From assembly GCF_016862575.1 (NCBI RefSeq), contig NZ_BONF01000042.1, positions 1-64,000 of the forward strand: a stretch of DNA of 64,000 nucleotides, read 5' to 3'. Positions 16,645-31,462 of this stretch are shown piece by piece; position 1 is the first letter of the stretch, and the number at the start of each line of letters is the position of its first letter. Below the pieces are notes generated by a model that was given only the letters and a program-made list of their open reading frames with translations, did no database searches and was not told the DNA's origin. The translations under genes and the position numbers were made by a program. The DNA is from Catellatospora bangladeshensis (lineage in GTDB: Bacteria > Actinomycetota > Actinomycetes > Mycobacteriales > Micromonosporaceae).

Positions 16645-18105
16645 CTAGGCGTGGCGTTCTGCGGCGGCGAGCGCGTCCAGCGGCACTGGCTTCACCGGCG
16701 GCTGTGCCGTGAAAGTGCCGACCTGCTCGGGTGTGCGCCCGGTCTGCGCGGCGATCAGCCCGCACACCGCGGGCGCGCACGACCTGCCCTGGCACAGGCC
16801 CATACCGGCACGGGTCACGAGCTTGACCGCGTTCGCAGTGCCCAGATGCGGGTGCTCGGCGAGCGCCTGTCGGATGTCCCCGGCGCGCACCTCCTCGCAC
16901 CGGCACAGCACGGTCTCGTCGGTGACCAGCGCGCCGAGCGTCGCCGGGGCCGGTGCAAACCTGCTGAGCACCGCAGCCGCGAAACGCCGCCGCCGCGCGA
17001 GGACCCGCCGGACCGGCCGGGCCAGCGCGCTCGCGCGGTCGGCGTCGAGCAGCCCGAGCGCTTGCAAGGTGCCGTACGCGGCGAGCCGCCCCTCGACCTC
17101 GGCCTGCTCCGCCCCGGCGACCCCCGTCAGCTCCCCCGCGACGCTGACACCGGGCACGGATGTGCGCATCCACGCGTCGTGCGCGACGACCCATCCGCCC
17201 TCGCCCGGCCGCCAGTCGACGGCGCATCCGGCCTGCCTGGCGAGTTCGGTGGACGGGACGAACCCATACCCGAGCGCGAGCACGTCGCAGCCCACGATCC
17301 GCTCGGTGCCGGGCATGAGCACACCGCCCGAATCCACCCTGGACATGTTCACCGAGTCGAGTGCGTCGTCGCCGTGCGCGGAGCGGATCACGGTCCCGAA
17401 CCGGATCGGCACCCGCGCCCGCCGCAGCGTACGCAGCGCGGCGGCCCCTTCGGCGAGCTTGCCCGCGCTGCCGAACGCGGCGAGCAAGTCCCGCGGCCCC
17501 GGCAGCAGGACACGCGGGTGCTGGCTGAACGCGACCTCGACCACCCGCGCCCCCGCGTCGACGAGCTGGGCGGCGACCACGAGCAGCAGCGGATGCCCGC
17601 CCGCCAGCACGAACCGGTGCCCCGGCAGCAGTCCCTGGGCTTTGACGAAGGTCTGCACGCCGCCCGCGGTGAGCACGCCGGGCAGCGTCCACCCGGGGAA
17701 CGGCACCGGCAGGTCGTACGCGCCCGCGGTCAGCACCAGCGCGGACGGCTCCAGCACCCGCCCGCCGTCCGGGGTGTGCACGCCGACCCGGATCCGCCCG
17801 GGGCCGGGTGCGGGTCCGGCGTAGTCGTCGAGCCCGGCCCTGGTCCCGAACACGCCCCACGCGGTGCTGTCGGGCAGCCACCGAACGTTCGGTGTCGACT
17901 CGGCCTCGGCCAGCAGCGCCCGGCCGGCCTTCGCCTGACGTCCCGGCCGGGTGAACCCGGCGGGCGGCTGGCGGTAGATCTGGCCGCCGGGCCGCTGCTG
18001 CTCATCGACGACCAGCACATCGGCGCCGTGGCGGCCGAGGGTCGCGGCGGCGGCGAGCCCGGCGGGCCCCGCGCCGACGACGACCACGTCGGGCTGCTCG
18101 TTCAT
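16645..18105 (-). CDS. FAD-dependent oxidoreductase with BFD-like [2Fe-2S] domain (dehydrogenase subunit)
   Basis: A 486-residue flavoprotein. It has an N-terminal Rossmann FAD site, VVVGAGPAGLAAA at 8-20, a second dinucleotide region around 140-280, and a C-terminal BFD-like domain with Cys401, Cys403, Cys438 and Cys443 (CRC and CQGRSC) to hold a [2Fe-2S] cluster. This matches HcnB/OoxA-type subunits of opine, D-hydroxyproline and cyanide-forming dehydrogenases. These work with a small ferredoxin-like subunit and a second FAD subunit, and both are encoded just upstream with 4-bp and 8-bp overlaps. The subunit probably passes electrons from the substrate flavin to the respiratory chain. Confidence 0.85.
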   Translation of the reverse strand: MNEQPDVVVVGAGPAGLAAAATLGRHGADVLVVDEQQRPGGQIYRQPPAGFTRPGRQAKAGRALLAEAESTPNVRWLPDSTAWGVFGTRAGLDDYAGPAPGPGRIRVGVHTPDGGRVLEPSALVLTAGAYDLPVPFPGWTLPGVLTAGGVQTFVKAQGLLPGHRFVLAGGHPLLLVVAAQLVDAGARVVEVAFSQHPRVLLPGPRDLLAAFGSAGKLAEGAAALRTLRRARVPIRFGTVIRSAHGDDALDSVNMSRVDSGGVLMPGTERIVGCDVLALGYGFVPSTELARQAGCAVDWRPGEGGWVVAHDAWMRTSVPGVSVAGELTGVAGAEQAEVEGRLAAYGTLQALGLLDADRASALARPVRRVLARRRRFAAAVLSRFAPAPATLGALVTDETVLCRCEEVRAGDIRQALAEHPHLGTANAVKLVTRAGMGLCQGRSCAPAVCGLIAAQTGRTPEQVGTFTAQPPVKPVPLDALAAAERHA

Positions 18106-18383
18106 CGCCCGGTCCGCACACGCAGACCCGGGCGGACCCGGACCAGGCAGGAGCGCTGGTAGGCCTGGTCGTCGACGGTGACGACGCAGGCGAAGCAGAC
18201 GCCCATGTTGCAGTACGGCGCCCGCGCCGCCCCCGAGGCGGTGGTGCCGGTCGCGGTGCGCCCGGCTGCCAGCAGCGCGGTGGCCAGGGACTCCCCTGGA
18301 TAGGCGGTGACGGGTTCGCCGTCGACCTCGATGGTGGTGGGCGCGGGCCGGTCCAGGCGGGTGCGGGTGGCGGTGTCAGACAA
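18102..18383 (-). CDS. (2Fe-2S)-binding small subunit (HcnA/OoxA-gamma-like)
   Basis: A 93-residue ferredoxin-like protein. Cys58, Cys63, Cys66 and Cys79 form the plant-type Cx4Cx2Cx12C cluster motif (YCNMGVCFACVV). The N-terminal IEVDGEPVTAYPGESLATAL strand-helix pattern is typical of the small subunit of amino-acid dehydrogenase complexes. Its start overlaps the stop of the upstream FAD subunit, and its stop overlaps the start of the BFD-type subunit by 4 bp, so all three are probably made in a fixed ratio. Predicted role: electron relay between the two flavoproteins. Confidence 0.85.
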   Translation of the reverse strand: MSDTATRTRLDRPAPTTIEVDGEPVTAYPGESLATALLAAGRTATGTTASGAARAPYCNMGVCFACVVTVDDQAYQRSCLVRVRPGLRVRTGR

Positions 18384-19542
18384 AGTTCAGCGCTCCGAAG
18401 CGTGCGGGAGAGTAGCCGTCCAGCGGCAGGTCGGGCTGCGCGCCGAGCAGGGTCGCGGCGAGCAGCCGGGCGTAGGTCGGCCCGAGGGTGAACGCGGACC
18501 CGCCGGTGGCCACGTACAGGCCGGGGCGGCGCGGGACCGCCCCGAGCAGCGGCAGCTGGTCCGGGGTCAGCGTGGTCATCCCGGACCACGACCGGATGAC
18601 GGGCAGGTGCATCACGGCGGGCACGACGCGGGCGGCGTCGGCGTTGCCGGTCAGGGACTCGTACCGCAGCTCGGGGTTGTGGTCGAGGTCGATGCGGCCC
18701 TGGCGGGTGACGAGTTTGGCGGGCCAGCCGCCGCCGAGCAGGATGTTGCCCTCGGGGGTCTGCTTCATGGACAGGCGGCGGCCGACGTGCTGGATGAGGT
18801 GCGGCAGCAGGGGCGCGGTGCGGGCGGTGGCGCTCATGGTGAGCCCGACCGGGAACACGGGCAGCCTGGTGTCGGCCATGGCGGCCAGCTCGGTGGTCCA
18901 CACCCCGGCGGCGAGCACGACGGTGTCGGCGGTGTCGGCGCGGCCTTCGGCGTGCAGGTGCCAGCGGCCGCCGTCGCGATGCAGCGCGGTGACCCGGTGG
19001 CCGGTGCGCAGCTCGGCGCCGTGCCGGGTGGCGGCGCGGGCGAAGGCGGGGGTGACCAGCCGGGGGTTCGCCTTGCCCTCACCGGGCAGGTGGGCGGCGG
19101 CCCGTACGGACTCGGCGAGGTAGGGCGCGAGATCCCGCAGGCGCGCGCCTTCGAGGACGTCGACGTCGAGGCCGTGTTCGCGTTCGAGAGCGGCCTTGCG
19201 GTCGAGGGCGGCGACCTCGGCGGGGGTCTCGGCGAGCATGAGGCCGCCGCGCTGGGCGACGCCGCAGGGTTCGCCGAGGGCGGCTTCGAGCCCGGCCCAG
19301 GCGCGCATGGCGTCGAGGTGCAGGGGCAGGGCGCGGGCGGCCTCCCGGGCGGCGTCGTCGCCGTGTTCGACCATGCGGTACTCGAGCTGGAAGTGCAGGC
19401 TGCCCGCGTTCTGGCCGGAGGCATGCCGGTTGAGCTGGTCCTTCTCGACGAGCAGGACGCGGGTGCCGGCGCGGGCGAGGTGCCAGGCGACCGCGCAGCC
19501 CAGCAGGCCGCCGCCGACGACCGCGGTGTCGTAGTGCGCCAT
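18376..19542 (-). CDS. DadA/D-hydroxyproline-dehydrogenase-like FAD oxidoreductase
   Basis: A 388-residue DAO-family flavoenzyme. The FAD-binding motif is VVGGGLLGCAVAWHLARAG from residue 8, followed by ASGQNAG, a motif common in D-amino-acid dehydrogenase and glycine oxidase relatives. The C-terminus (GLYVATGGSAFTLGPTYARL) closes over the flavin. The ATG at 19542 shares one base with the stop codon of the DapA-like gene. Together with the ferredoxin-like and BFD-type subunits it makes a three-part dehydrogenase. The neighbouring DapA-fold lyase suggests oxidation of a D-imino acid such as cis-4-hydroxy-D-proline (inferred); D-amino acids or opines are alternatives. Confidence 0.82.
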   Translation of the reverse strand: MAHYDTAVVGGGLLGCAVAWHLARAGTRVLLVEKDQLNRHASGQNAGSLHFQLEYRMVEHGDDAAREAARALPLHLDAMRAWAGLEAALGEPCGVAQRGGLMLAETPAEVAALDRKAALEREHGLDVDVLEGARLRDLAPYLAESVRAAAHLPGEGKANPRLVTPAFARAATRHGAELRTGHRVTALHRDGGRWHLHAEGRADTADTVVLAAGVWTTELAAMADTRLPVFPVGLTMSATARTAPLLPHLIQHVGRRLSMKQTPEGNILLGGGWPAKLVTRQGRIDLDHNPELRYESLTGNADAARVVPAVMHLPVIRSWSGMTTLTPDQLPLLGAVPRRPGLYVATGGSAFTLGPTYARLLAATLLGAQPDLPLDGYSPARFGALNFV

Positions 19543-20459
19543 CAGAGCAGGCCGAGCTGGGCCAGGGTGGCGCGGACGCGGGCCTGCTGGTCCTCGGTGA
19601 GCGGCAGCAGGGGGCGGCGGACGTGCCCGGCGGGCACGCCGCGCAGGGTGAGGGCGTACTTGAGGATGGCCTGGGCGCCGGCGAACCTGGCCCCGTAATC
19701 GGCGTTGAACCAGTTCTCCATGAGGACGCGGTCGCGGGCGCCGAGGCGGCGGGCGCGGTCGAGGTCGCCGTCGGCCAGGGCGCGGAAGAAGTCGGGGTGG
19801 TCGGCGCCGAGCACGGCCCCGGCGCCCATGAGGCCGTCGCCGCCGATGCGGGTGAGCAGCTCGATGCCGGTCTCGCTGGTGGGGATGCCGAAGTAGCGGA
19901 CGTGGTCGCGCAGGGCGATGAGGCCCTTGACGAAGCCGCCGAAGTCGGGGGTCGAGTTCTTGACGGCGACGACGGTGGGCAGCGCGGCGAGTTCGGTGAG
20001 CAGGGCGGTGTCGAGGTCGACGCCGGTGCCGCGGGGCCAGTTGTAGACGCACAGCGGGATGTCGACGGCTTCGGCGACGTCGCGGTAGAAGGCGACGATC
20101 TCCTCGCGGGCGGGCACGACGTACGGCGGCGGGGTGAGCAGGATGCCGTGCAGCCCGGCGGCCTGGGCGGCGCGGGCGTGGCGGACCGCCTCGGCGGCGG
20201 TGTACGCGTTGCACCCGCCGAGCACCGTCATCCGGTCCCCGACCTGCTCGGCGGCGGCGGTGAACAGCTCGGCGCGCTCGTGTTCAGCCAGGCTGAACCA
20301 CTCGCCGGTGGTGCCCGCGACGATGATGCCGTGCATACGCTGCTCGGCGAGCCAGTCGAGCTGGACGGCCCACGCGTCCAGGTCGAGGTCGCCGGAGGCG
20401 GTGAACGGGGTGGTGACGGCGGGAATGTAGCCGTGCCAGTCGACGCTGTCGCGGTTCAT
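19542..20459 (-). CDS. DapA/NAL-family lyase or deaminase
   Basis: A 305-residue class I aldolase-fold enzyme. Visible family residues are GTTGE at 49-53, Tyr139 in YNWPRG and the Schiff-base Lys167 in VAVKNST. The start at ATG 20459 is preceded by GAAGGACC; an upstream in-frame start would add ten residues. Its place beside a D-hydroxyproline-dehydrogenase-like complex recalls pyrroline-4-hydroxy-2-carboxylate deaminase (HypD/LhpC), which belongs to this family. A general pyruvate-type lyase cannot be excluded. True DapA is unlikely, because the gene is embedded in a catabolic operon. It shares one base with the downstream FAD gene. Confidence 0.82.
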   Translation of the reverse strand: MNRDSVDWHGYIPAVTTPFTASGDLDLDAWAVQLDWLAEQRMHGIIVAGTTGEWFSLAEHERAELFTAAAEQVGDRMTVLGGCNAYTAAEAVRHARAAQAAGLHGILLTPPPYVVPAREEIVAFYRDVAEAVDIPLCVYNWPRGTGVDLDTALLTELAALPTVVAVKNSTPDFGGFVKGLIALRDHVRYFGIPTSETGIELLTRIGGDGLMGAGAVLGADHPDFFRALADGDLDRARRLGARDRVLMENWFNADYGARFAGAQAILKYALTLRGVPAGHVRRPLLPLTEDQQARVRATLAQLGLL

Positions 20460-20491
20460 CGAGGGGTCCTTCCGTGGCGCAGGGCGCATCG

Positions 20492-20510
20492 GCCCGCCGG
20501 TCGGGCGGGC
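20492..20510 (-). other. Intergenic hairpin between regulator and lyase genes
   Basis: GCCCGCC (20492-20498) pairs with GGCGGGC (20504-20510) across a 5-nt loop, in the 84-bp gap between the XRE-cupin gene and the lyase gene. It could attenuate read-through, lowering either regulator-promoter transcription into the operon or the reverse. Confidence 0.35.
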
Positions 20511-20543
20511 TGCGCGGGTGGTGCGATCGGGGTGTGGGGGCGG

Positions 20544-21080
20544 CTAGGGGGTCGGCGGGGTGACCGCGATGACCAGGCGGGCCGGTTCGGTGCTGGTGTT
20601 GAGGTAGCGGTGGGGCAGGCGGGAGTCGAAGGTGACCGCCTCGCCGGTGGACAGCTGGTAGGTGGCGCCGCCGATCTCGGCGGTCACGGTGCCTTCGAGC
20701 ACGATGGCGCACTCGGTGGAGGGGTGCGACCAGGGCTGGGCGGAGCTGGCGTCGCCGGGGGCGAGTTCGGCCTGGAGCACTTCGAGGTCGCCGCGGCCGG
20801 GGGTGAGCCGGTCGTAGGCGATCTGGCCGGGCGGGGCCGCGAGGCGGCTGCGGGTGCCGGGGCGGCTGATGTACACGGCGGGGGCGTCGGGCTCGCTGAA
20901 CAGCATGGCGATCGAGGTGTCGAACACCCGGGCCAGTTTGCGCAGGGTCGCCAGGCTCGGATCGGTCGCGCCGTTTTCAATCTGACTTAGCAGAGCCGAC
21001 GAGACGTCGGCTTCGGCGGCGAGCTGACGCAGCGTGTACCCATGCTGCTGTCGCAGCTCACGGAGCCGATCACCGAGCAT
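20544..21080 (-). CDS. XRE-family regulator with C-terminal cupin sensor domain
   Basis: A 178-residue regulator. Residues about 5-62 form a Cro/C1-type HTH (LRELRQQHGYTLRQLAAEAD then SSALLSQIENG). Residues about 100-178 form a cupin barrel with HPSTECAIVLEGT and LPHRYLN, likely the ligand-sensing part. ATG 21080 has GGAGG six bases upstream; a TTG four codons earlier is rejected. It is divergent from the ten-gene import and hydrolysis operon and precedes the oxidation operon, so it is the natural local regulator of both. Palindromes in the shared promoter region are candidate binding sites. Confidence 0.88.
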   Translation of the reverse strand: MLGDRLRELRQQHGYTLRQLAAEADVSSALLSQIENGATDPSLATLRKLARVFDTSIAMLFSEPDAPAVYISRPGTRSRLAAPPGQIAYDRLTPGRGDLEVLQAELAPGDASSAQPWSHPSTECAIVLEGTVTAEIGGATYQLSTGEAVTFDSRLPHRYLNTSTEPARLVIAVTPPTP

Positions 21081-21099
21081 TGGCGCCTCCAACCCGATA

Positions 21100-21146
21100 A
21101 GTTTTACTGAACTTGTTTGACGAAACTACACGAGCGTGTTTAGTGT
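21100..21146. promoter_or_regulatory. Divergent promoter with palindromic operator candidates
   Basis: On the plus strand TTGACG (21117-21122), an 18-nt spacer and TAGTGT (21141-21146) form a good actinobacterial promoter for the transport operon. Overlapping it are AGTT-N6-AACT (21100-21113), GTTT-N4-AAAC (21115-21126) and CACG-AG-CGTG (21129-21138). These fit binding by the divergent XRE-cupin regulator. Confidence 0.55.
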
Positions 21147-21242
21147 GGTCAACCAGAGCGGTAATGAGCAGGACTCATGATCGCCCTTACCACGCTGTTG
21201 CCGGGCGCACGCGTCCGTCCACATCAAACCCGAAGGCGCGCC

Positions 21243-21316
21243 GCCGGCCGTTTGCCGGCCCTGGTTCCGCCGGTCCCCGGGAGGCCTCCTCCTCCCTGAA
21301 GCTCCCGAGGGACCGG
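21243..21316 (+). promoter_or_regulatory. Structured 5' leader with two hairpins
   Basis: The predicted mRNA leader of about 190 nt contains GCCGGC-N5-GCCGGC (21243-21259). It also holds a long stem pairing 21270-21283 with 21302-21316 (14 bp with one bulge), ending shortly before the AAGGAAGG/AGGA ribosome site of the substrate-binding protein gene. It may act as an attenuator or mRNA stabiliser. It matches no known riboswitch that I recognise. Confidence 0.45.
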
Positions 21317-21338
21317 CCCGAAGGAAGGTAGGAACACC

Positions 21339-22940
21339 ATGTCGGTGAACCCCCGCCGACTCCGCGTCGCAGCGCTCGCGCTCGCCGCCGTCAGCACCGC
21401 CTCCGTCACCGCCTGCACCGCCGGTTCCGGCGGCGGCGGCGCCGCCGGACCGACCGACACCCTCACGGTCAACACCTCGTTCGTGCTCAAGACCCTGGAC
21501 CCGGGTCGCGTGTACGAGGCCACCGGAGTCACCACCACCCACGCCCTCTACGACACGCTGCTCACCTTCAAGGGCTCGGACGTCAGCAAGCCCGTGCCGG
21601 AGCTGGCCGAGTCCTACGAGGCCTCCCCCGACGCCAAGACGTTCACGTTCAAGCTGCGCGAGGGCGTCAAGTTCTCCGACGGCACCCCGCTGACCGCCGA
21701 CGACGTCGTGTTCTCGCTGAACCGGCTCAAGAACGTCAAGGCCAGCCCCGCCGTCATGGTCACCGACCTGACCGCGTCGAAGACCGACGACCGCACCGTC
21801 GTGGTCACCTCGGCCAAGGCCAACCCGAACGTGCCGGTCGTGCTCGCCATGTCCGCCACCGGCGTGGTCAACTCGAAGGTCGCCAAGGCCAACGGCGCGA
21901 CCGACGGCGCCGACGCGGCCTCGGCCGACACCGCCCAGCAGTTCTTCGACAAGACCTCCGCGGGCAGCGGCCCCTACGTCCTCAAGTCGTACGACCCGTC
22001 GTCGCAGGTCGTGCTGGAGGCCAACCCGAACTACTGGGGCGGCAAGCCCAAGTTCAACCGGGTCGTGCTGCGCAACATGGACGTGCAGACGCAGAAGCTC
22101 ACCATGTCGCGGTCCACGGCCGCGGAGGTGTCGCTGGACATCTCCGGCAAGCTGCTCGACGGCCTGCCCGACAGCCTGCAGACCTCCGGCGTGCAGGACA
22201 CGGTGTACTACCTGATCCTCAACGCCGACCCCGCCGTGTCGAAGGTGACCTCGGACGCCAAGTTCCGGCAGGCGCTGCGGTCCGCGATCGACTACCAGGG
22301 CGTGGCGGCGCTGTTCGGCAAGGGCGCCGGTCCGGGCGCGGGCCTGGTCGCCCCGGCCTTCCCGGGCACGCTCACCGGTGAGGAGAGCAAGCGCGACGTC
22401 GCCCAGGCCAAGCAGCTGCTGACCGACGCCGGGCTGAGCAACCCGACGGTCAAGTTCACCTACCCGGCGATCACCTACCGGGGCGTCGACCTCGGCACGG
22501 TGGCCACGAAGGTGCAGGGCGACGCGGCCGAGGCGGGCATCACCCTGGAGCTGAACCCGCAGCCGCTGACCACGTTCCTCGACCAGATGCGCGGCGGCAA
22601 GATGCCCATGGGCTTCACCCCGCAGAGCCTCAACTACCCGGTCGCCGACTCGCTGGTCAACAACATGGCACCGGGTGCGGGCAGCGCCCTACGCGCCGGA
22701 TGGACCGTCGAGCGGGCCGCACCCAGCGTCGTCGCCGCCGGGGAGAAGGTCGTGTCCACGCTGGACCCTGCGCAGCGCGCCGAGGCCATGAAGGACTGGC
22801 AGCGCGAGATGAACGCCCACGGGCCGTACATCGTCATCGCCAACAACTCCGGCATGAACGTCGCCACCAGCGACCTCACCGGTGTGGAGTACACCCCCGC
22901 CGGATGGCAGCTCGACCTCGCCGCGATCGGCACCCGATGA
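21339..22940 (+). CDS. Peptide/opine-type ABC transporter substrate-binding lipoprotein (SBP_bac_5)
   Basis: A 533-residue extracytoplasmic solute receptor. It has a lipoprotein signal peptide with Cys26 in SVTAC, then a Gly/Ser linker. The family 5 (DppA/OppA) fold shows LKTLDPGRVYEATGV, LAESYEASPDAKTFTFKLR (residues ~87-105), GVKFSDGTPLTADDVVFSLNR and NPNYWGGKP. Its length is normal for the family. It should capture a peptide, opine or similar ligand and hand it to the permeases encoded next. The stop codon overlaps the next start (ATGA). It is the first gene of a ten-gene operon with a structured leader. Confidence 0.92.
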   Translation: MSVNPRRLRVAALALAAVSTASVTACTAGSGGGGAAGPTDTLTVNTSFVLKTLDPGRVYEATGVTTTHALYDTLLTFKGSDVSKPVPELAESYEASPDAKTFTFKLREGVKFSDGTPLTADDVVFSLNRLKNVKASPAVMVTDLTASKTDDRTVVVTSAKANPNVPVVLAMSATGVVNSKVAKANGATDGADAASADTAQQFFDKTSAGSGPYVLKSYDPSSQVVLEANPNYWGGKPKFNRVVLRNMDVQTQKLTMSRSTAAEVSLDISGKLLDGLPDSLQTSGVQDTVYYLILNADPAVSKVTSDAKFRQALRSAIDYQGVAALFGKGAGPGAGLVAPAFPGTLTGEESKRDVAQAKQLLTDAGLSNPTVKFTYPAITYRGVDLGTVATKVQGDAAEAGITLELNPQPLTTFLDQMRGGKMPMGFTPQSLNYPVADSLVNNMAPGAGSALRAGWTVERAAPSVVAAGEKVVSTLDPAQRAEAMKDWQREMNAHGPYIVIANNSGMNVATSDLTGVEYTPAGWQLDLAAIGTR

Positions 22941-24031
22941 CCGAGGTCAGCACCAAGCAGGACCCGGGAGCGGCCGTCACGGCCGCCCCCGGGCCCCGCC
23001 CCCGGCGCCGCCGCCCGATGCTCACCTACCTCGCCAAGCGGCTGGTGATCACCGTCGGGCTGCTGCTGGGCGTGACCGTCCTGACCTTCGGCCTGGTGCA
23101 GGTCGTGCCCGGCGACCCGGTCACCGCGAACCTGTCCGACCAGGCGCTCAACGACCCCGCCGCCGTCGCCGCGTTCCGCGCCAAGTGGGGCCTGGACCAG
23201 CCGGTGCACCTGCAGTACCTGCACTACCTGGGCAACCTGCTCACCGGCGACCTCGGCATCTCCCAGCAGACCGGCCGCTCCGTCGCCGAGGACCTGCTGC
23301 AGTACGTCCCCGCCACCATGGAACTGGCCATCCCCACCATGCTGCTGGCGCTGCTGCTCGGCACCGGCATCGGCATGCTGGCCGCCGTCCGCAACGGCCG
23401 CCTCACCGACCAGGTCATCCGCGTCGGCGCGCTGCTCGGCCTGTCCACGCCGCCGTTCTGGCTGTCGCTGGTGGTCCTCTACCTGTTCTTCTTCCAGCTC
23501 GGCCTGTCCCCCAGCGGCGGGCGGCTGTCCCCCGGCTTCACACCGCCCGACACCGTCACCGGCATGTACACCGTCGACGCGGCGCTGGCCGGGCAGTGGG
23601 ACCTGGCCTGGGACGCCGCCCAGCACCTGGTGCTGCCGGTGCTCGTGCTGACCTGCCTCACCGTGGCGATCCTGGTCCGGTTCGTGCGCTCCTCCATGCT
23701 GGAGGTGCTCCAGCAGGACTACATCAAGGCCGCGTACGCCAAGGGCCTGCCCACCGGGCTCGTGCTGCGCCGCCACCTGCTGCGCGCCGGGCTCGTGCCC
23801 GTCATCACCGTCTCCGGCCTGGCGTTCGCGTCACTGCTGTCCGGGACGGTGCTGGTGGAGAACATCTTCGGCTGGCCGGGCCTGGGCCAGTACGCCTACC
23901 GCAGCGCCAGCGCCCTGGACCTGCCCGCGATCCTCGGCGCCAGCCTGTTCGTGGCCCTGGTCTACACCCTGGTCAACCTCACCGTCGACCTGCTGTACGG
24001 ACTCATCGACCCGAGGATCCGGATCCAATGA
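22937..24031 (+). CDS. ABC transporter permease (DppB/OppB-like)
   Basis: A 364-residue inner-membrane permease. After a basic cytoplasmic leader of about 30 residues come MLTYLAKRLVITVGLLLGV and several membrane helices, including VVPGDPV, the DppB-type periplasmic motif. The BPD_transp_1 EAA loop is recognisable as DYIKAAYAKGLPTGLVLRRH. The start overlaps the previous stop by 4 bp, and its own stop overlaps the next start. It forms a heterodimeric channel with the following permease. Confidence 0.93.
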   Translation: MTEVSTKQDPGAAVTAAPGPRPRRRRPMLTYLAKRLVITVGLLLGVTVLTFGLVQVVPGDPVTANLSDQALNDPAAVAAFRAKWGLDQPVHLQYLHYLGNLLTGDLGISQQTGRSVAEDLLQYVPATMELAIPTMLLALLLGTGIGMLAAVRNGRLTDQVIRVGALLGLSTPPFWLSLVVLYLFFFQLGLSPSGGRLSPGFTPPDTVTGMYTVDAALAGQWDLAWDAAQHLVLPVLVLTCLTVAILVRFVRSSMLEVLQQDYIKAAYAKGLPTGLVLRRHLLRAGLVPVITVSGLAFASLLSGTVLVENIFGWPGLGQYAYRSASALDLPAILGASLFVALVYTLVNLTVDLLYGLIDPRIRIQ

Positions 24032-24933: not shown

Positions 24934-25910
24934 TGGGTGCGCTCCTCGACATCGACCGCCTCGCGGTGGCCCTGCCCGGACCCCGCGGACCCCTGCCGAT
25001 CCTGCACGACGTGTCGCTGACCGTCGGCGAGGGCGAACTCGTCGGCATCGCCGGGGAGAGCGGCTGCGGCAAGAGCATGACCGCGCAGACCCTGCTCGGC
25101 CTGCTGCCGCCCGGCGCCAAGGTGACCGGCTCGGCCCGCTTCGACGGCACCGAGCTGCTCACCCTCGACCGCAAGGGCTGGCAGAAGGTACGCGGCGCGG
25201 GCATCGCCATGGTGTTCCAGGACCCCACCGCCGCCCTGCACCCGATGCTCACCGTCGGGCGGCAGCTCACCGAGCACATGCGGGTGCACCTGGGTGTGGA
25301 CCGCAAGGCCGCCCGGCGGCGCGCGGTCGACCTGCTGGACCAGGTGCGCATCCCGGACCCGGAGCGGGCGCTGGAGGCATACCCGCACCAGTTCTCCGGC
25401 GGGATGCGCCAGCGCGTGGCCATCGCGAGCGCCCTGGCCGCCCAGCCCCGGCTGCTCATCGCCGACGAGCCCACCACCGCCCTCGACGTCACTGTGCAGG
25501 CGGGCATCCTGGCCCTGCTGGACCGGCTGCGCCGCGACACCGGCCTGGCCGTCGCGTTCATCACCCACGACCTGGGTGTGCTCAGCGCGCTGACCGCCCG
25601 CAGCTACGTGTTCTACGCCGGGCGCGTCGTCGAGTCCGGGCCGACGGGGCAGCTGCTCACCAAGCCCGAACACCCCTACACGGCCGCGTTGCTGGGGGCC
25701 CGGCCGCACGGCGGGCAGACCGGTGTCGCGCTCACGCCGATCCCGGGCAGCCCGCCCGCGCCCGGCGAGCTGCCGCCCGGCTGCGCGTTCAGCCCCCGCT
25801 GCGCGCACGTGCGCGACGAGTGCCGCACCGCCGTCCCGCCCCTGCACCCGGCGGGCCCCGGCCGCGCCGCGGCCTGCGTGATCCGACCCGAGCTGGAGGT
25901 GGCCGCGTGA
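24933..25910 (+). CDS. ABC transporter ATP-binding protein (DppD/OppD-like)
   Basis: A 325-residue ATPase. Walker A is GESGCGKS (from about residue 42), the ABC signature is FSGGMRQR, Walker B is LLIADEPTTALD and the switch His lies in ITHDLGV. The C-terminal oligopeptide-transporter extension has GCAFSPRCAH, a Cys-containing region seen in this subfamily. The start codon shares one base with the preceding stop. It powers import together with the next ATPase. Confidence 0.93.
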   Translation: MGALLDIDRLAVALPGPRGPLPILHDVSLTVGEGELVGIAGESGCGKSMTAQTLLGLLPPGAKVTGSARFDGTELLTLDRKGWQKVRGAGIAMVFQDPTAALHPMLTVGRQLTEHMRVHLGVDRKAARRRAVDLLDQVRIPDPERALEAYPHQFSGGMRQRVAIASALAAQPRLLIADEPTTALDVTVQAGILALLDRLRRDTGLAVAFITHDLGVLSALTARSYVFYAGRVVESGPTGQLLTKPEHPYTAALLGARPHGGQTGVALTPIPGSPPAPGELPPGCAFSPRCAHVRDECRTAVPPLHPAGPGRAAACVIRPELEVAA

Positions 25911-26863
25911 CACTCCTGGACATCGACGGCGTGCACGTCGAGCACAAGCCGCGCGGCCGCGCCCCCGTCCGCGCCGTCGCCGGAGTCGACCTGAGCGTCG
26001 CGCCCGGACAGATCGTGGGGCTGGTCGGTGAGTCCGGCTGCGGCAAGTCGTCGCTGGCCCGGGTCGCCGCCGGGCTCACCGCGCCCAGCGCCGGCGAGGT
26101 CCGCTACGCCGGGCGGCCGGTCACACCGCTGGGCTGGCGCCGCCGCACCGCCGACCAGGTCGGGCTGCAGATGGTGTTCCAGAACCCGTACGCCTCCCTC
26201 AACCCGCGCCGCGCCGTCGGCGAGCAGCTGCTCGACGGCGTACCGGCCGAGGTCACCGGGGCGGCCCGCAGCGCACGGCTTAACGAGCTGCTGGAACGGG
26301 TCGGCATGCCGGCCGCCGCGGCGAGCCGCTACCCGCACCAGTTCTCCGGCGGGCAGCGCCAGCGGCTGGCCATCGCGCGGGCACTGGCCCCGCAGCCGCG
26401 CGTGATCATCGCCGATGAGCCGGTCACCGCGCTGGACGCCTCCTCGCAGGCGCAGGTGGTGAACCTGCTCGTCGGGCTCGTGCGGGAGCTGGGCATGGGG
26501 ATGCTGTTCATCTCGCACGACCTGGCCCTGGTGCACGAGATCGCCGACGTCACCGCCGTCATGTACCTCGGCAAGATCGTCGAGACGGCGCCCACCCGGC
26601 AGCTGTGGGCCCAGCCGCACCACCCGTACACCCGCGCCCTGATCGACGCGGTGCCGCGCATCAGCACGGAGCCGGTGCTGCCCGCGACCCTGGCCGGGGA
26701 GGTCCCCGACCCGGCGAACGCACCCGCGGGCTGCCGCTTCGCGCCCCGCTGCCCGCACGCGTTCGACCGCTGCGCCACCGAGCCGCCCACCGTCGCCATC
26801 GGACCGTCCGCCGGGGTCGCCTGCTGGCTGCACCAGCCCGCACCCCAGACCGCCCGCCTGTAA
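25907..26863 (+). CDS. ABC transporter ATP-binding protein (DppF/OppF-like)
   Basis: A 318-residue ATPase starting at GTG 25907, which overlaps the upstream TGA (GTGA). Walker A is GESGCGKSS, the signature is FSGGQRQR, Walker B is VIIADEPVTALD and the switch is ISHDLAL. The C-terminal GCRFAPRCPHAFDRC is typical of oligopeptide ATPases. It completes a five-gene importer whose members are all in order and apparently intact. Confidence 0.93.
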   Translation: MTLLDIDGVHVEHKPRGRAPVRAVAGVDLSVAPGQIVGLVGESGCGKSSLARVAAGLTAPSAGEVRYAGRPVTPLGWRRRTADQVGLQMVFQNPYASLNPRRAVGEQLLDGVPAEVTGAARSARLNELLERVGMPAAAASRYPHQFSGGQRQRLAIARALAPQPRVIIADEPVTALDASSQAQVVNLLVGLVRELGMGMLFISHDLALVHEIADVTAVMYLGKIVETAPTRQLWAQPHHPYTRALIDAVPRISTEPVLPATLAGEVPDPANAPAGCRFAPRCPHAFDRCATEPPTVAIGPSAGVACWLHQPAPQTARL

Positions 26864-26873
26864 GGAGAACAGC

Positions 26874-28115
26874 ATGTTCCGCCCTGCCGAGCAGGTCCTC
26901 GTCAACTGCTCCGTCTACGACGGCGTCGGCGACACCGTCCTGCCCGACCACGCCGTGTGGACCGACCCCGACGGCATGATCCGCGCCGTCGGGCCCGTCG
27001 ACGACGTGCTCGCCGAAGCCCGCGGCGTCACCGTCGTCGACCTCGGCGGCGGCTACCTCATGCCCGGCCTGACCAACATGCACGTGCACCTGTCGCTCGG
27101 CCTGCCCGGCCACTTCGGCGACGAGGTGCACCGCTCCGACCAGGCCGAACTCGTCCTGCTCATGGCCGACTCGGCCCGCCGCACTCTGCACGCGGGCATC
27201 ACCACCGCCCGCCTGGTCGGCGAGAGCCGCTACGCCGACTTCGCCCTGCGCAAGGCCATCGAGCGCGGCGCCGTCGACGGACCCCGCATCTTCACCGCCG
27301 GGCACGCGCTGTGCTGCACCGGCGGCCACGGCTGGGACGCCGACGCGCTGGAGGCCGACGGCGCCGACGGGTTCCGCAAGCTCACCCGCCAGCAGATCCG
27401 CGCCGGGGCCGACCTGATCAAGGTGTGCATCTCCGGCGGCATCGCCGGCCAGCACGAGGCCATCGACACCCCACAGCTGCTCGACGACGAGATGGCCGCC
27501 GTCATCCAGGTCGCCCACGACTGGGGCCGCAAGGTCACCGCTCACGCGGGCCCGGCCGACTCGATCCGCCGCGCCGTCGAGCTGGGCCTGGACTGCGTCG
27601 AGCACGGCTACGAACTCACCGACGACGTCACGAAGCTGATGGCCGCCCACGGCACCTGGTACGTGCCGACCATCGTGGTCAGCCGCTGCGAGCAGTTCTT
27701 CCGCGACTCCGGCGTGCCCGGCTGGCTCATGGACCGGGCCCTGTCGGCCGGTCCCCGCCACTGGGAGAGCCTGCAGCTGGCCATCGCCAACGGCGTGCCC
27801 ATCGCCATGGGCAGCGACATGCCCCCGCACGCCGGCTACGACGAGACCACCGCCACCGTGCGCGAGCTGGAGTTCATGGTCGACGCCGGGATGAGCGTCG
27901 CCGACGCGCTCAAGTCCGCCACCGTACGCCCCGCGCAGTGGCTCGGCGCCGACGACCGACTCGGCACTGTCCAGGAGGGACGCCACGCCGACCTGATCGT
28001 GCTGCGCGACGACCCGACCAAGAGCATCTCCGCGCTGCGCACCCTGCACCTGGTCATGAAGGGCGGCGTCGTGTACCGCGACGACACCAACGTGACGCGG
28101 CGGTTCGCCCGATGA
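26874..28115 (+). CDS. Metal-dependent amidohydrolase (imidazolonepropionase/Xaa-Pro-carboxypeptidase-like)
   Basis: A 413-residue amidohydrolase-superfamily enzyme with an apparently complete binuclear metal set: His70 and His72 (NMHVHL), Lys183 (ADLIKVCISGG), His224 (TAHAG), His244 (VEHGYEL) and Asp315 (MGSDMPPHAG). It belongs to the imidazolonepropionase-like branch, which includes Xaa-Pro/Xaa-Arg carboxypeptidases and organophosphate-type lactonases. It is cytoplasmic, with no signal peptide. An AAGGAG site precedes the ATG. Following directly on the importer genes, it is likely the first hydrolytic step on the imported compound; an N-acyl or Xaa-Pro amide bond is a reasonable guess. Confidence 0.88.
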   Translation: MFRPAEQVLVNCSVYDGVGDTVLPDHAVWTDPDGMIRAVGPVDDVLAEARGVTVVDLGGGYLMPGLTNMHVHLSLGLPGHFGDEVHRSDQAELVLLMADSARRTLHAGITTARLVGESRYADFALRKAIERGAVDGPRIFTAGHALCCTGGHGWDADALEADGADGFRKLTRQQIRAGADLIKVCISGGIAGQHEAIDTPQLLDDEMAAVIQVAHDWGRKVTAHAGPADSIRRAVELGLDCVEHGYELTDDVTKLMAAHGTWYVPTIVVSRCEQFFRDSGVPGWLMDRALSAGPRHWESLQLAIANGVPIAMGSDMPPHAGYDETTATVRELEFMVDAGMSVADALKSATVRPAQWLGADDRLGTVQEGRHADLIVLRDDPTKSISALRTLHLVMKGGVVYRDDTNVTRRFAR

Positions 28116-29764
28116 GCACCATCACCGAGATCGCCGACGGCTATCTGGCCGCGCTGGCCGCGATCGACCCCGACGCGGCCGACGTCGTGGGACGCCCGCT
28201 GCCGTCCCGGTTCGGGGACCTGTCCCCCGCCGGGTTCGCCGCCCGCGCCGAACTCGACCGGCGCACCCTGACCGCGGCGCGGGCCGCGACCGCAGACGGC
28301 ACCGCCGCACACGCCCTCAAGGCAGCGCTGGTCGACCGGCTGGAGAGCGACCTGGCGCTGTACGACGCCGGGTTCACCACCCGGCTTCTCGCGCCGCTGG
28401 CCACGCCCGTGCACCTGACCCGCCAGGTGTTCGACCAGTTCCCCCGCGAGACCGATGAGGACTGGGCGGTCATCGCCGAGCACCTGCACGGCCTCGGCGG
28501 GGCGCTGGAGGCGTACGCGGCGACCCTGCGCGACGCCGCCGACCAGGGACACCTCGTCGCCCGGCGGCAGGTGCTCGCCGTCGCCGACCAGGCCACCGCC
28601 TGGATCACCACCGACGACTTCTACGGCCGCCTGGCCGCCGCCCGCCCCGGCGACGACCGGATCGCCGAAGGCGCCCGCCAGGCGTCCGCCGCGACCGGCA
28701 GGTTCGCCGCGTTCCTGCGCCTGGAGCTCGCCCCGCGCGCCGGGACCGTCGACGGCGTCGGCCGCGACATGTACGCCGTCACCTCCCGCAGCTTCCTCGG
28801 CGCGCAGGTCGACCTCGACGAGCTGTACGCCTACGGCTGGGACCAGCTGCGCAGCACCGCAGAGGAGATGCGGCAGGTCGCCGCGCAGCTCGGCCATCCC
28901 GACACGGCCGCCGCCTTCGCCGCGCTCGACGCCGACCCCGCCTGGCGCGTGGCCACCGGCCCGGCGCTGGAGCAGTGGCTCGGCGATCGCGTCGAGCAGG
29001 TCACCGCCGCGCTCGACGGCACGCACTTCGACATTCCCGCCGCGACCCGCCAGGTGACCTGCCGGATCAGCCCCGCCGCGTCCGGCGTCATGTACTACAC
29101 CCCGCCCGACGCGACCCTGACCCGCCCCGGCGGCATCTGGTGGGCCGTGCCCGGCGGCCACCCCGAGATCCCGGTCTGGAGCCACGTCGGCACCCTCTAC
29201 CACGAGGGCCTGCCCGGACATCACCTCCAGCACGCGATCACCATGACCACCGAGCAGCTGCACCCCTGGCAGCGGCACCTGTGCCACGTCCACGGCTACG
29301 CCGAGGGCTGGGCCCACTACGCCGAACGCCTCGCCGACGAGCTGGGCCTCTACCAGGGCCCCGCCGAACGCCTCGGCATGCTCTGCGGCCAGATCTGGCG
29401 CGCCGCCCGCATCGTCATCGACATGGGCCTGCACCTGGACGCACCCATCCCTGCCGGCAACGGCTTCACCGAGGCCACCCGCTGGACCCCGGAGCTGGCC
29501 GTGGACTTCCTCGTCCAGGTCGCCGGGCTCGACCGGGCCACCGCGACGTTCGAAGTGGACCGCTACCTCGGCTGGCCGGGCCAGGCGCTCGCGTTCAAGG
29601 CCGGGGCACGGCTGTGGGCGCAGGCCCGCCGCGACGCCGAGACCCGCGCCGGAGCCGCGTTCGACCGCAGGCGTTTCCACACCGACGCGCTGCGCCTTGG
29701 CCCCATGGGCCTGGACCCGCTGCGCGCCGTCCTCACCGCACTCGACCCCCAGGAGCGACCTTGA
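28112..29764 (+). CDS. DUF885 family zinc metallohydrolase
   Basis: A 550-residue protein of the DUF885 family. The zinc-binding motif HEGLPGHH is at about 364-371, and the downstream Glu is in EGWAHYAERL (Glu398), the family pattern. Members are mostly uncharacterised, metallopeptidase-like and often found near peptide transporters. There is no signal peptide, so it should act in the cytoplasm. Its start overlaps the amidohydrolase stop (ATGA) and its stop overlaps the next start (TTGA). A second peptide or amide hydrolase acting with the amidohydrolase is the best contextual reading. Confidence 0.85.
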   Translation: MSTITEIADGYLAALAAIDPDAADVVGRPLPSRFGDLSPAGFAARAELDRRTLTAARAATADGTAAHALKAALVDRLESDLALYDAGFTTRLLAPLATPVHLTRQVFDQFPRETDEDWAVIAEHLHGLGGALEAYAATLRDAADQGHLVARRQVLAVADQATAWITTDDFYGRLAAARPGDDRIAEGARQASAATGRFAAFLRLELAPRAGTVDGVGRDMYAVTSRSFLGAQVDLDELYAYGWDQLRSTAEEMRQVAAQLGHPDTAAAFAALDADPAWRVATGPALEQWLGDRVEQVTAALDGTHFDIPAATRQVTCRISPAASGVMYYTPPDATLTRPGGIWWAVPGGHPEIPVWSHVGTLYHEGLPGHHLQHAITMTTEQLHPWQRHLCHVHGYAEGWAHYAERLADELGLYQGPAERLGMLCGQIWRAARIVIDMGLHLDAPIPAGNGFTEATRWTPELAVDFLVQVAGLDRATATFEVDRYLGWPGQALAFKAGARLWAQARRDAETRAGAAFDRRRFHTDALRLGPMGLDPLRAVLTALDPQERP

Positions 29765-30144
29765 GCACCGACGACCTCGCCCAGGTCATCACCTCGATGT
29801 ACCGGGCGCTGGGCGACCGCCCCGCCTTCGACGCCCACCTGCACCCGGCCCTGACCATCTGGGAGTCCGACGCGCCCGAGCTGCTGCACGGCCTGCCGTC
29901 GCTGGACGCGCTGCGCGACCGGCGCGCCGCGGCCCGCTCCGGCGCCCCCGTGGCCGGGACGGTCACCGTCGCCCCCGAGGAGCTGCTGACCGAGAGCTGG
30001 GGCGAGACCGGCCTGGCCCGGTACCTGCTGCGCGCCGTGCACGCCGACGGCAGCCGGGACGACGTCTTCCGGGTCACCGACGTGCTGCGCCGCGACGGCA
30101 AGGGCTGGCGCATCGTGCACCACCACGCGGAGGCCGTGGCATGA
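29761..30144 (+). CDS. NTF2/SnoaL-like small protein
   Basis: A 127-residue protein starting at TTG 29761, whose last two bases lie in the preceding TGA. The helix-rich N-terminus (ITSMYRALGDRPAFDAHLHP), a central IWESDAPE strand and the C-terminal RVTDVLRRDGKGWRIVHHH match DUF4440/SnoaL-type cone-shaped folds. Such proteins can be small isomerases, cyclases or binding proteins. No catalytic assignment is possible from sequence alone. The rare TTG start and tight overlap suggest lower, coupled expression. Confidence 0.78.
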   Translation: MSTDDLAQVITSMYRALGDRPAFDAHLHPALTIWESDAPELLHGLPSLDALRDRRAAARSGAPVAGTVTVAPEELLTESWGETGLARYLLRAVHADGSRDDVFRVTDVLRRDGKGWRIVHHHAEAVA

Positions 30145-30464
30145 GCGACGAACCCGTCACCGACGTCTACGACCTGCGGGTCGTCGTCGAGCGCATCGAG
30201 GGCCGCTCCGTCTGCGGGCTGAAGGTCGGCGACTACATCGACCTCACCCAGTCGAATCGGCTGTCCACTCCCGAGGGCGGGCACTTCTGCCTGTACGCGC
30301 TGGCCGCGTGCCTGCCGCTGCTGCCCGCCAAGCAGCGTCCCCTGCCGCCGGGCGACTGGCTGGAGACCGACTGCCACGTCGCCTGCCCCGACCCCGACGA
30401 GCGGCTCATCATGCGCATCGAGCGCACCGCCCGCCGCACCATCCCCACGGAAGAACTCACATGA
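30141..30464 (+). CDS. TIGR04076-like small protein
   Basis: A 107-residue protein with VYDLRVVVERIEG, Cys46 in RSVCGLKVGDYI, LPLLPAKQRPLPPGDWLET and a CHVACPDP segment. This pattern fits the TIGR04076 family of small Cys-containing proteins, which often lie next to oxidoreductases or hydrolases and have no established function. It overlaps both neighbours by 4 bp. The conserved Cys residues could bind a metal or help a partner enzyme, but this is speculative. Confidence 0.75.
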   Translation: MSDEPVTDVYDLRVVVERIEGRSVCGLKVGDYIDLTQSNRLSTPEGGHFCLYALAACLPLLPAKQRPLPPGDWLETDCHVACPDPDERLIMRIERTARRTIPTEELT

Positions 30465-31462
30465 CCCAGCGCCTGATCGGGCTCGGCGTGCAGTCCGACA
30501 AGACCGCCGGCGAGTACGCCGCCATCGCCCAGCTCGCCGAGCAGCACGGCTTCGACGTGCTGAGCGTGTTCGGCGACCTGATGTACCAGCCGCCGATCTT
30601 CCCGCTGCTCGTGGCGGCCCAGCACACCAGCCGCATCGCGCTCGGGCCCGCGTGCCTGAACCCGTACACGATGCACCCGGCCGAGGTCGCGGGCCAGATC
30701 GCCGCGCTGGACATCGCGTCCGGCGGCCGGGCGTACCTGGGCCTGGCCCGGGGCACCTGGCTCGACCAGGTCGGCGTGCCGCAGGCCCGGCCGCTGCGGC
30801 GGCTGCGCGAGACCGTGGACGTGGTGAACCTGCTGCTGGGCCAGGACCCAGCCGGCTACCAGGGGCGCGAGCTGAGCATCGCCCCGGGCACCGCGCTGCG
30901 GTACACGCCGCACCGGCCGCGCGTACCGCTGCTCATCGGCACCTGGGGGCAGCGCACCGCGGAACTGGCCGCCGCGGTCGCCGACGACGTCAAGGTCGGC
31001 GGCTCCGCCAACCCGGCCATGGGCAAAACCATGCGGGCCTGGCTCGACGCGGCCGCGGCCGCCGCCGGGCGGGACCCGGCCGAGGTCGGGCTGACCCTGG
31101 GCGCGGTCACCGTCGTGGACGAGGACGGGGCCGCCGCCCGCGCCCTGGCCCGCACCGAGGTCGCCATGTACCTCGCGGTGGTCGCCGACCTCGACCCCAC
31201 CGTCGAGATCGACCCCGAGCTGCTGGCGCGGGTGCAGGCGCACGTCGGCCGGGGCGAGCACGCCGAGGCGGGCGCGCTGATCAGCGACGACCTGCTCGAC
31301 CTGTTCGCGTTCTCCGGCACGCCTTCGCAGATCGCCGACCAGGCGGAGGCGGTGTTCGCGGCGGGGGTGACCCGCGTCGAGTTCGGCACCCCGCACGGGC
31401 TCACCCCGATGCGCGGCGTCGAGCTGCTAGGCGGGTATGTCGTGCCCGCCCTGCGCGGCTAG
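30461..31462 (+). CDS. LLM-class (luciferase-like) flavin-dependent oxidoreductase
   Basis: A 333-residue TIM-barrel oxidoreductase of the bacterial-luciferase/F420 superfamily. GLGVQSDKTAGEYAAIAQLAE at the N-terminus, ALGPACLNPYTMHPAEVAGQ, a GRAYLGLARGTWLD core and LLIGTWGQRTAELAA are characteristic of F420- or FMN-dependent members such as methylenetetrahydromethanopterin-reductase-like proteins. It is the last gene of the ten-gene operon and overlaps the previous gene by 4 bp. It probably performs a redox or oxygenase step on a breakdown product. The cofactor cannot be told from sequence by eye, but F420 is common in actinomycetes. Confidence 0.86.
   Translation: MTQRLIGLGVQSDKTAGEYAAIAQLAEQHGFDVLSVFGDLMYQPPIFPLLVAAQHTSRIALGPACLNPYTMHPAEVAGQIAALDIASGGRAYLGLARGTWLDQVGVPQARPLRRLRETVDVVNLLLGQDPAGYQGRELSIAPGTALRYTPHRPRVPLLIGTWGQRTAELAAAVADDVKVGGSANPAMGKTMRAWLDAAAAAAGRDPAEVGLTLGAVTVVDEDGAAARALARTEVAMYLAVVADLDPTVEIDPELLARVQAHVGRGEHAEAGALISDDLLDLFAFSGTPSQIADQAEAVFAAGVTRVEFGTPHGLTPMRGVELLGGYVVPALRG

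Follow-up and report, generated by a model that had tools for sequence, protein, structure and literature searches.

A recurrent fifteen-gene actinobacterial locus that joins a peptide-type importer and putative amide hydrolases to a hydroxyproline-dehydrogenase-like complex and a distinct DapA-fold clade

The window analysed here, a 64,000-nucleotide stretch of Catellatospora bangladeshensis (contig NZ_BONF01000042.1, positions 1 to 64,000), contains a two-armed gene locus between positions 16645 and 31462. Gene calling by codon usage places ten genes on the plus strand (21339-31462) and five on the minus strand (16645-21080), with a 258-bp intergenic region separating the divergent arms. Eight of the nine plus-strand junctions overlap by 1-4 bp, and the remaining one is a 10-bp gap. 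Together with family assignment by Pfam and NCBIfam profile searches, these calls bear out the anatomy described in an earlier note on this DNA: ten overlapping plus-strand genes facing genes for an XRE-cupin regulator, a DapA-fold enzyme and an FAD/[2Fe-2S]/FAD-BFD complex. Consensus scans for promoters and terminators returned no matches. The features are as follows.

16645..18105, minus strand: FAD/NAD(P)-fold subunit with BFD [2Fe-2S] domain, alpha-type, of a complex resembling hydroxyproline dehydrogenase (HypDH) and opine dehydrogenase; PF07992 (Pyr_redox_2), PF04324 (Fer2_BFD), PF17806 (SO_alpha_A3)
18102..18383, minus strand: [2Fe-2S] gamma-type subunit; PF13510 (Fer2_4)
18376..19542, minus strand: DAO-fold beta-type (catalytic) subunit; PF01266, 225.6 bits
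19542..20459, minus strand: DapA-fold Schiff-base lyase/dehydratase of a distinct clade; PF00701 (DHDPS)
20544..21080, minus strand: XRE-cupin transcriptional regulator; HTH_3 and Cupin_2
21113..21156, no strand: 44-bp inverted-repeat element, candidate operator; conserved columns in 8 loci
21339..22940, plus strand: family 5 solute-binding protein; PF00496 (SBP_bac_5), 249.8 bits
22937..24031, plus strand: Dpp/Opp-type permease 1; PF00528 (BPD_transp_1), PF19300
24028..24933, plus strand: Dpp/Opp-type permease 2; PF00528 (BPD_transp_1), PF12911
24933..25910, plus strand: Dpp/Opp-type ATPase 1; PF00005 (ABC_tran), PF08352 (oligo_HPY)
25907..26863, plus strand: Dpp/Opp-type ATPase 2; PF00005 (ABC_tran), PF08352 (oligo_HPY)
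26874..28115, plus strand: amidohydrolase-superfamily peptidase/amidase, COG1228-type (Xaa-Pro dipeptidase/ochratoxin-amidase-like); PF01979 (Amidohydro_1)
28112..29764, plus strand: DUF885 metallopeptidase-like protein; PF05960, 441.5 bits (cut-off 32.4)
29761..30144, plus strand: SnoaL/NTF2-like protein; PF13474 (SnoaL_3), 36.5 bits (cut-off 22)
30141..30464, plus strand: TIGR04076 protein, companion of the LLM gene; TIGR04076, 64.5 bits (curated cut-off 33)
30461..31462, plus strand: LLM-class oxidoreductase, Mer/F420-like by sequence; PF00296 (Bac_luciferase), 163.3 bits

All fifteen genes lie within a single locus in 11 genomes, the window's and 10 others, from three families of the same class (Micromonosporaceae, f81 and f86), and the locus genes of the 10 further genomes are 45-94% identical to those of the window. 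Among 150 genomes of the window's family, nine, its own counted, contain a relative of the DapA-fold protein at E <= 1e-60; six of these, at 75-90% DapA identity, carry the same set (G118, G016, G125, G012, G070 and G086, the G086 locus ending at a contig edge before DUF885 and SnoaL). Within the window's own genus this draw listed 11 genomes, 7 of them without a match, and the locus is therefore accessory. A second draw, from another order, yielded DapA-fold matches in 11 of 396 genomes, and five of these, at 60-66% DapA identity (G915, G660, G741, G577 and G591), have all fifteen genes in one locus; the five full-set loci outside Micromonosporaceae were each pieced together from two adjoining stretches. 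The arms are divergent in Micromonosporaceae and G915 and tandem in four f86 genomes, and the LLM and TIGR04076 genes precede those for DUF885 and SnoaL in g13, f81 and f86. Full retention of the genes despite their reshuffled order argues for a functional unit, and recurrence of all fifteen in 10 further genomes is more than chance. The search for conserved co-occurrence of all these families in actinobacteria, which the earlier note had proposed, thus identifies a real, conserved combination of known parts. Among the matches listed from the openly licensed PubMed Central literature, no title concerned a comparable locus; one paper there mentions TIGR04076 and 13 mention DUF885.

Between the arms lies an inverted repeat, TTGTTTGAC-N26-GTCAACCAG (window 21113-21156). 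The three g13 loci, Micromonospora echinofusca (L023) and C. sichuanensis (L015) have GTCAAACAG as its right half, which is complementary to the left one in 8 of 9 letters. When eight close Micromonosporaceae loci are aligned (the window, L013-L018 and L023), 31 of the 44 columns of this element are invariant; outside it, invariant columns number 9 of the 178 on the right and 2 of the 26 on the left. When the region of the window was shuffled by mononucleotides 20000 times, 7 shuffles held the repeat pattern at up to two mismatches per half. The Streptomyces locus has a looser match. The XRE-cupin protein, which scores below the PuuR cut-off, is likely a local repressor, and the repeat may be its operator. 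A search of the window's own genome with the 13-bp half, one mismatch allowed, returned this site and one other, against one site for the reversed-pattern control, so we claim no wider regulon.

By sequence, the DapA-fold enzyme belongs to a distinct clade. In a 49-row tree it falls within a 25-row clade (branch values 99/98) of close relatives together with proteins of Bradyrhizobium, Novosphingobium and loci L019, L038, L039 and L109-L114; proteobacterial rows (L026, L028-L030, L097-L100) and the actinobacterial L132 lie outside and are not separated from the other DapA-fold proteins of the window's own genome. A grouping in the first tree, with 20 window-type rows on one side of a branch (91/83), was not kept in the larger tree. 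T50, Y113, Y139 and K167 are invariant across 31 aligned sequences, and in DHDPS these are the catalytic threonine, the tyrosines and the Schiff-base lysine. R143-G144 follow the second tyrosine in the window's clade; the substrate-binding arginine of DHDPS stands one residue later. Motifs of its own (GTTGEW, YNWPRG and KNST) differ from those of DapA-fold proteins linked to proline racemases, and the protein scores under the cut-offs of all seven NCBIfam models that it matched, including TIGR00674 (4-hydroxy-tetrahydrodipicolinate synthase; 143.2 bits, curated cut-off 206.15). Its AlphaFold2 model (pLDDT 95.5) gives near-tied matches to many DHDPS-family structures and does not discriminate function; among 7999 scored candidates, 568 proteins match it at E <= 1e-40.

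The alpha, beta and gamma genes of the flavin-FeS dehydrogenase stand together, as in the canonical L-hydroxyproline pathway. The alpha subunit has GxGxxG at residue 11 and cysteines at 401, 403, 438, 443 and 448, and the gamma subunit has cysteines at 58, 63, 66 and 79 (C-X4-C-X2-C-X12-C), a pattern that fits within the motif quoted for OdhABC in excerpts of PMC4575208. The gap between the second and third alpha cysteines is 34 residues, compared with 29-33 in the nine canonical alpha proteins, of ten, that allowed the measurement and 15-20 as quoted in the same excerpts. The tree of DAO proteins shows main groupings similar to those of the DapA-fold tree; in its 38-row version one RidA-linked DAO (L101) sits inside the DapA-coupled group.

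The earlier note had suggested uptake, hydrolysis, oxidation and lyase cleavage of a (hydroxy)proline-containing or opine-like amide. A first alternative is accordingly a hydroxyproline-peptide pathway, in which Xaa-Hyp would be imported and cut by a prolidase-like amidohydrolase, and D-hydroxyproline dehydrogenase and a pyrroline-4-hydroxy-2-carboxylate (Pyr4H2C) deaminase would then lead to alpha-ketoglutarate semialdehyde. The superfamily set is the same as in the hydroxyproline operon SCO6289-SCO6293 of S. coelicolor, which also has an epimerase and in which deletion of SCO6293 abolishes growth on hydroxyproline (PMC6608401, in the portion consulted). The best NCBIfam score of the amidohydrolase is to the Xaa-Pro dipeptidase model NF051886, and M24 peptidases occur in L024, L026/L027, L089, L098 and L130. 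The M24 peptidase of L024 (Streptomyces SID8352) is 47-54% identical to those near three of 11 racemase-linked loci (L076, L077 and L083). Moreover, another contig of the genome holds a semialdehyde-dehydrogenase candidate (G000:C16:212146-213432, with one TGA in the aligned frame) that is 47% identical to an aldehyde dehydrogenase on S. meliloti pSymB, in a stretch, unannotated in the record, that is presumably the hyp region.

Comparison with hydroxyproline-type loci of the window's own family nevertheless makes this pathway quite improbable. Thirteen proline-racemase neighbourhoods were compared; 11 include a DapA-fold relative, accompanied in 10 (all but L071) by a DAO relative. We term the 11 canonical by their resemblance to SCO6289-SCO6293; among the proteins extracted from them, some are incomplete or begin at an uncertain position. 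The DapA-fold and DAO proteins of these loci are only 29-38% and 26-31% identical to the window's, and both form groups apart from it: 98/93 (35 rows) and 100/100 (49 rows) for the DapA fold, each tree including in that group one S. meliloti protein with a very long branch that is presumably HypD, and 100/100 (31 rows, with a caution that long branches meet) and 100/99 (38 rows) for the DAO beta subunit. No homologues of DUF885, SnoaL, TIGR04076 or LLM were found in any of the 11 loci, which otherwise contain a 34% amidohydrolase relative (L073), XRE-cupin relatives at 24-28% (L071 and L072) and importer relatives (L080). The proline-racemase/epimerase family PF05544 has no match in the window's own genome (99.69% complete), so that the earlier observation of a missing epimerase holds genome-wide, and it was not found in 8 of the 11 full-set genomes (the window's, G016, G118, G125, G915, G660, G577 and G591); G012, G070 and G741 have one or two such proteins each. 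The system is therefore not dependent on that epimerase family. Tree position and the lack of the epimerase family led us to reject a canonical hydroxyproline operon, and the hydroxyproline reading as originally written is not supported. The racemase-bearing relative L019 also encodes a 352-residue protein (L019:10201-11259) that looks like a NicX-type dioxygenase by eye and has no Pfam match.

The amidohydrolase carries H70, H72, K183, H224, H244 and D315 (HxH, K, H, H, D), at the positions expected in its superfamily, as candidate metal ligands; its solved relatives include an entry named ochratoxinase, and the closer ones are presumably ochratoxin amidases. The DUF885 protein has an HE-type zinc motif (HEGLPGHH) and is a relative of PDB 3iuk (E 6.8e-114); excerpts of PMC12572635 place its family in the Peptidase_MA clan. 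On the Vibrio vulnificus plasmid pVVS1-per1, which carries sul1, two ISVsa3 copies enclose a 354-bp 'DUF885 family' gene, a RidA gene and an amidohydrolase that shares 44% identity with that of the window (L096:2001-5107). The best NCBIfam match of the LLM protein is PRK02271 (Mer), at 163.5 bits under a curated cut-off of 276. The TIGR04076 model (pLDDT 91.7) has no PDB match at E <= 0.001, which shows neither a new fold nor a function.

Relatives of the core raise a second alternative, a cyclic or aryl amide substrate (hydantoin-, lactam-, diketopiperazine- or ochratoxin-like), from which an N-substituted or gamma-hydroxy amino acid would be oxidised before cleavage by a DapA-fold aldolase. 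Within the DapA clade, L111, L113 and L114 combine a COG1228-type amidohydrolase (36-38%) with HyuA and HyuB (the latter by Pfam in L111 and by eye in the others); L110, L112 and L039 have an Amidohydro_1 protein 36% identical to annotated dihydropyrimidinases, together with an allophanate-hydrolase-C-like gene (AH_C); L038 has the core and HyuA; and L019 has a 30% COG1228-like amidohydrolase, a dihydropyrimidinase-like protein and a proline racemase. Outside the clade, beside related DAO genes, dihydropyrimidinases are annotated in L097 and L099, M24 peptidases occur in L026/L027 and, by annotation, in L098, and an M81 peptidase occurs in L030; no amide hydrolase was identified in the L028, L029 and L100 neighbourhoods. 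The ochratoxin-type relatives of the amidohydrolase fit such a substrate, as do some loci in which the hydrolase arm has other partners, namely an aminotransferase and an HpcH/HpaI aldolase in L130 (G872, which also has an M24 peptidase) and a kynureninase-like gene in L125 and L135 (243.4 bits, curated cut-off 246.4). This last gene was not found in L133, of the same genus, and is a lead only. However, the clade loci with hydantoinase-type or other distant hydrolases are those at 39-43% DapA identity, the window's importer is of the peptide class, and M24 and S9 neighbours favour peptides (in L132 the hydrolase arm is accompanied by DUF885, a protein of the S9 prolyl-oligopeptidase family, and DAO (36%) and DapA (27%) relatives). 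We regard a cyclic or aryl amide as unlikely, although with some prospect. The common denominator of the related loci is amide hydrolysis followed by amino-acid oxidation or transamination, often with a lyase, and on this basis our favoured substrate is a peptide-like amide that contains some unusual amino or imino acid. The freed half may be proline-like or a gamma-hydroxy amino acid; either is compatible, and we make no choice between them.

The arms can also be followed separately. TIGR04076 proteins at E <= 1e-20 occur in 22 of 396 genomes of the order sampled in the second draw (apparently the same draw), and all five genomes of the close DapA clade (60-66%) fall among these 22; because four of the five share one genus, this sample of co-occurrence is not independent. 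The 21 loci inspected (G634 was left out) comprise five full sets, four complete hydrolase arms with regulator and no DapA or DAO genes in the 20-kb stretch (L124, L125, L133 and L135), four partial hydrolase arms (L127, L130, L132 and L134) and eight TIGR04076-LLM pairs without other members (L120-L123, L126, L128, L129 and L131), not counting additional relatives of LLM and, in L129, a partial match to SnoaL. TIGR04076 adjoins LLM in 20 of the 21, with one gene between them in L134. A phylum-wide draw found TIGR04076 in 3 of 296 genomes, the window's included, and gave two further loci: L090, with importer, amidohydrolase, TIGR04076 and LLM, and L089, with importer, TIGR04076, LLM, XRE-cupin, RidA, a single 27% DAO relative and M24. 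In three Embleya loci the importer and SnoaL are retained along with a more distant amidohydrolase (35-37%), with no DUF885, TIGR04076 or LLM nearby, and L024 keeps the amidohydrolase (63%) and DUF885 beside a different importer and an extra M24 peptidase.

TIGR04076 genes have other company as well. On alphaproteobacterial plasmids (L092, L093, L095 and L094) their neighbours are genes for an aldo/keto reductase, a GntR regulator and an ABC importer of the branched-chain type, and the first three of these loci also hold a 55-58% relative of the fusion of aldo/keto reductase and RidA in L026. A plasmid of Rhodococcus sp. YL-1 (L091:10494-15775) has, consecutively, an APC permease, TIGR04076, two LLM genes and an FAD oxidoreductase. 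DUF3830, for which no mention was found in the openly licensed PubMed Central literature, lies beside TIGR04076 in L094 (11499-11990, by annotation) and beside the DapA/DAO/dihydropyrimidinase set in L097 (11310-11720, by Pfam) and L099 (11273-11689, by annotation).

Since each arm is found alone elsewhere, the hydrolase and oxidase/DapA arms are two modules, and the two-armed locus is a stable combination of them. Their occurrence alone in several genomes would also be expected if a portable amide importer/hydrolase module and a portable amino-acid oxidase/DapA module had become neighbours while serving unrelated tasks. We give this little chance, because 11 genomes from three families hold both arms in one locus even though gene order has changed, the eight close loci have a single conserved inverted repeat that both arms face, and COG1228-type amidohydrolases adjoin the DapA gene even in the distant L111, L113 and L114. 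The earlier note had counted relatives with separate arms as evidence against its reading; this holds in part, for some relatives are one-armed, yet the 11 full-set genomes carry both.

Several observations weigh against a single pathway for a peptide-like amide. The four genomes with a complete importer/hydrolase arm only (G764, G632, G817 and G702) hold it without the core within ~20 kb and have no DapA-clade match genome-wide at E <= 1e-60. Conversely, Bradyrhizobium elkanii and two Novosphingobium plasmid loci consist of DapA, DAO, [2Fe-2S] and FAD/BFD genes only (DapA 46-58%), with no hydrolase arm within 15 kb. The amidohydrolase, at 263.5 bits, is far under the curated Xaa-Pro dipeptidase cut-off of 500; the hydantoinase-type hydrolases of distant relatives point away from ordinary dipeptides; and in the neighbourhood of L109, of the DapA clade, an HpcH/HpaI aldolase is present and no amide hydrolase was identified. 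Finally, the repeat pattern is unmatched in L019 (same family, distant), the three Embleya loci and the f81 and f86 loci.

On balance, and with about even confidence, we read the locus as accessory and co-regulated and as serving the catabolism of a peptide-like amide, with HypDH-like oxidation, a DapA-fold enzyme of a distinct clade and no need of an epimerase. Of the earlier peptide/imino-acid reading, the part that stands is one conserved locus in which genes for uptake and amide hydrolysis are joined to those of a heteromeric HypDH-type dehydrogenase and of a DapA-fold enzyme; the M24 and S9 peptidases of several related loci would fit a prolyl-peptide-like substrate. In the scheme that we propose, where every substrate and reaction, the operator function and the direction of electron flow are predictions from sequence, the Dpp-type ABC importer would take up a peptide-like compound and the amidohydrolase, assisted by the DUF885 peptidase, would cut its amide bond or bonds. 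The freed alpha-amino or imino acid would be oxidised by the FAD/[2Fe-2S]/FAD-BFD complex, with electrons probably passing to the respiratory chain, and the DapA-fold Schiff-base enzyme would turn the resulting 2-imino or 2-oxo acid into a central metabolite by dehydration, deamination or cleavage. One of the pieces may undergo an additional redox step, carried out by the LLM enzyme and its TIGR04076 companion. The XRE-cupin protein would repress both arms at the 44-bp element until released by a ligand, and an epimerase of the proline-racemase type would not be needed.

It is possible, and we suggest it more tentatively, that the locus represents a new way of breaking down peptide-like amides, in which a HypDH-like complex and a new DapA-fold clade degrade the amino- or imino-acid half without an epimerase and TIGR04076 is a companion of a possibly F420-dependent LLM enzyme. 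In other lineages the same hydrolase arm would be paired with different modules for amino-acid cleavage, namely an HpcH/HpaI aldolase plus an aminotransferase and perhaps a kynureninase. The recurrent gene set is defined around DUF885, TIGR04076 and the DapA-fold clade, families without assigned function. Naming the substrate would assign functions to the three jointly and would show reuse of a hydroxyproline-type oxidation module for other amides.

Elsewhere in the window, a 2587-residue protein with FG-GAP and RHS repeats adjoins the locus (8172-15935), and just 3' of the LLM gene lies a small peptidoglycan-binding-domain protein (31730-32149) with a weak coding score, for which tblastn found no relative in the L013-L020 stretches of the window's family. 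One predicted protein further along (55343-56848) combines an alpha-lytic-protease prodomain, a trypsin domain and ricin-type lectin domains.

Among known systems, the amidohydrolase shares its sequence family and candidate metal ligands with COG1228 enzymes such as Xaa-Pro dipeptidase, arginine carboxypeptidase Cc2672 and ochratoxinase, whereas the DapA-fold enzyme differs from described members of the DHDPS/NAL superfamily (DapA, KdgD, YagE and HypD) in its sub-cut-off NCBIfam scores and its own motifs. OdhABC is alike in its heteromeric alpha/beta/gamma architecture, its cofactor motifs and its position beside ABC transporter genes; however, the word dihydrodipicolinate is absent from the main text of PMC4575208, and the A. 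brasilense subunits, labelled Odh-like on the strength of their gene order, lie apart from the DAO group of the window (only two rows, on long branches). In layout there is a likeness to SCO6289-SCO6293 and the P. aeruginosa Lhp system, in which DAO beta, [2Fe-2S] gamma, FAD/BFD alpha and DapA-fold genes likewise share one operon (PMC6608401, in the portion consulted). The window's locus would resemble this hydroxyproline pathway in its working but lies outside it: it has no epimerase, its DapA and DAO proteins belong to other groups, its regulator is XRE-cupin rather than GntR, and it adds an importer, an amidohydrolase, DUF885, SnoaL, TIGR04076 and LLM.

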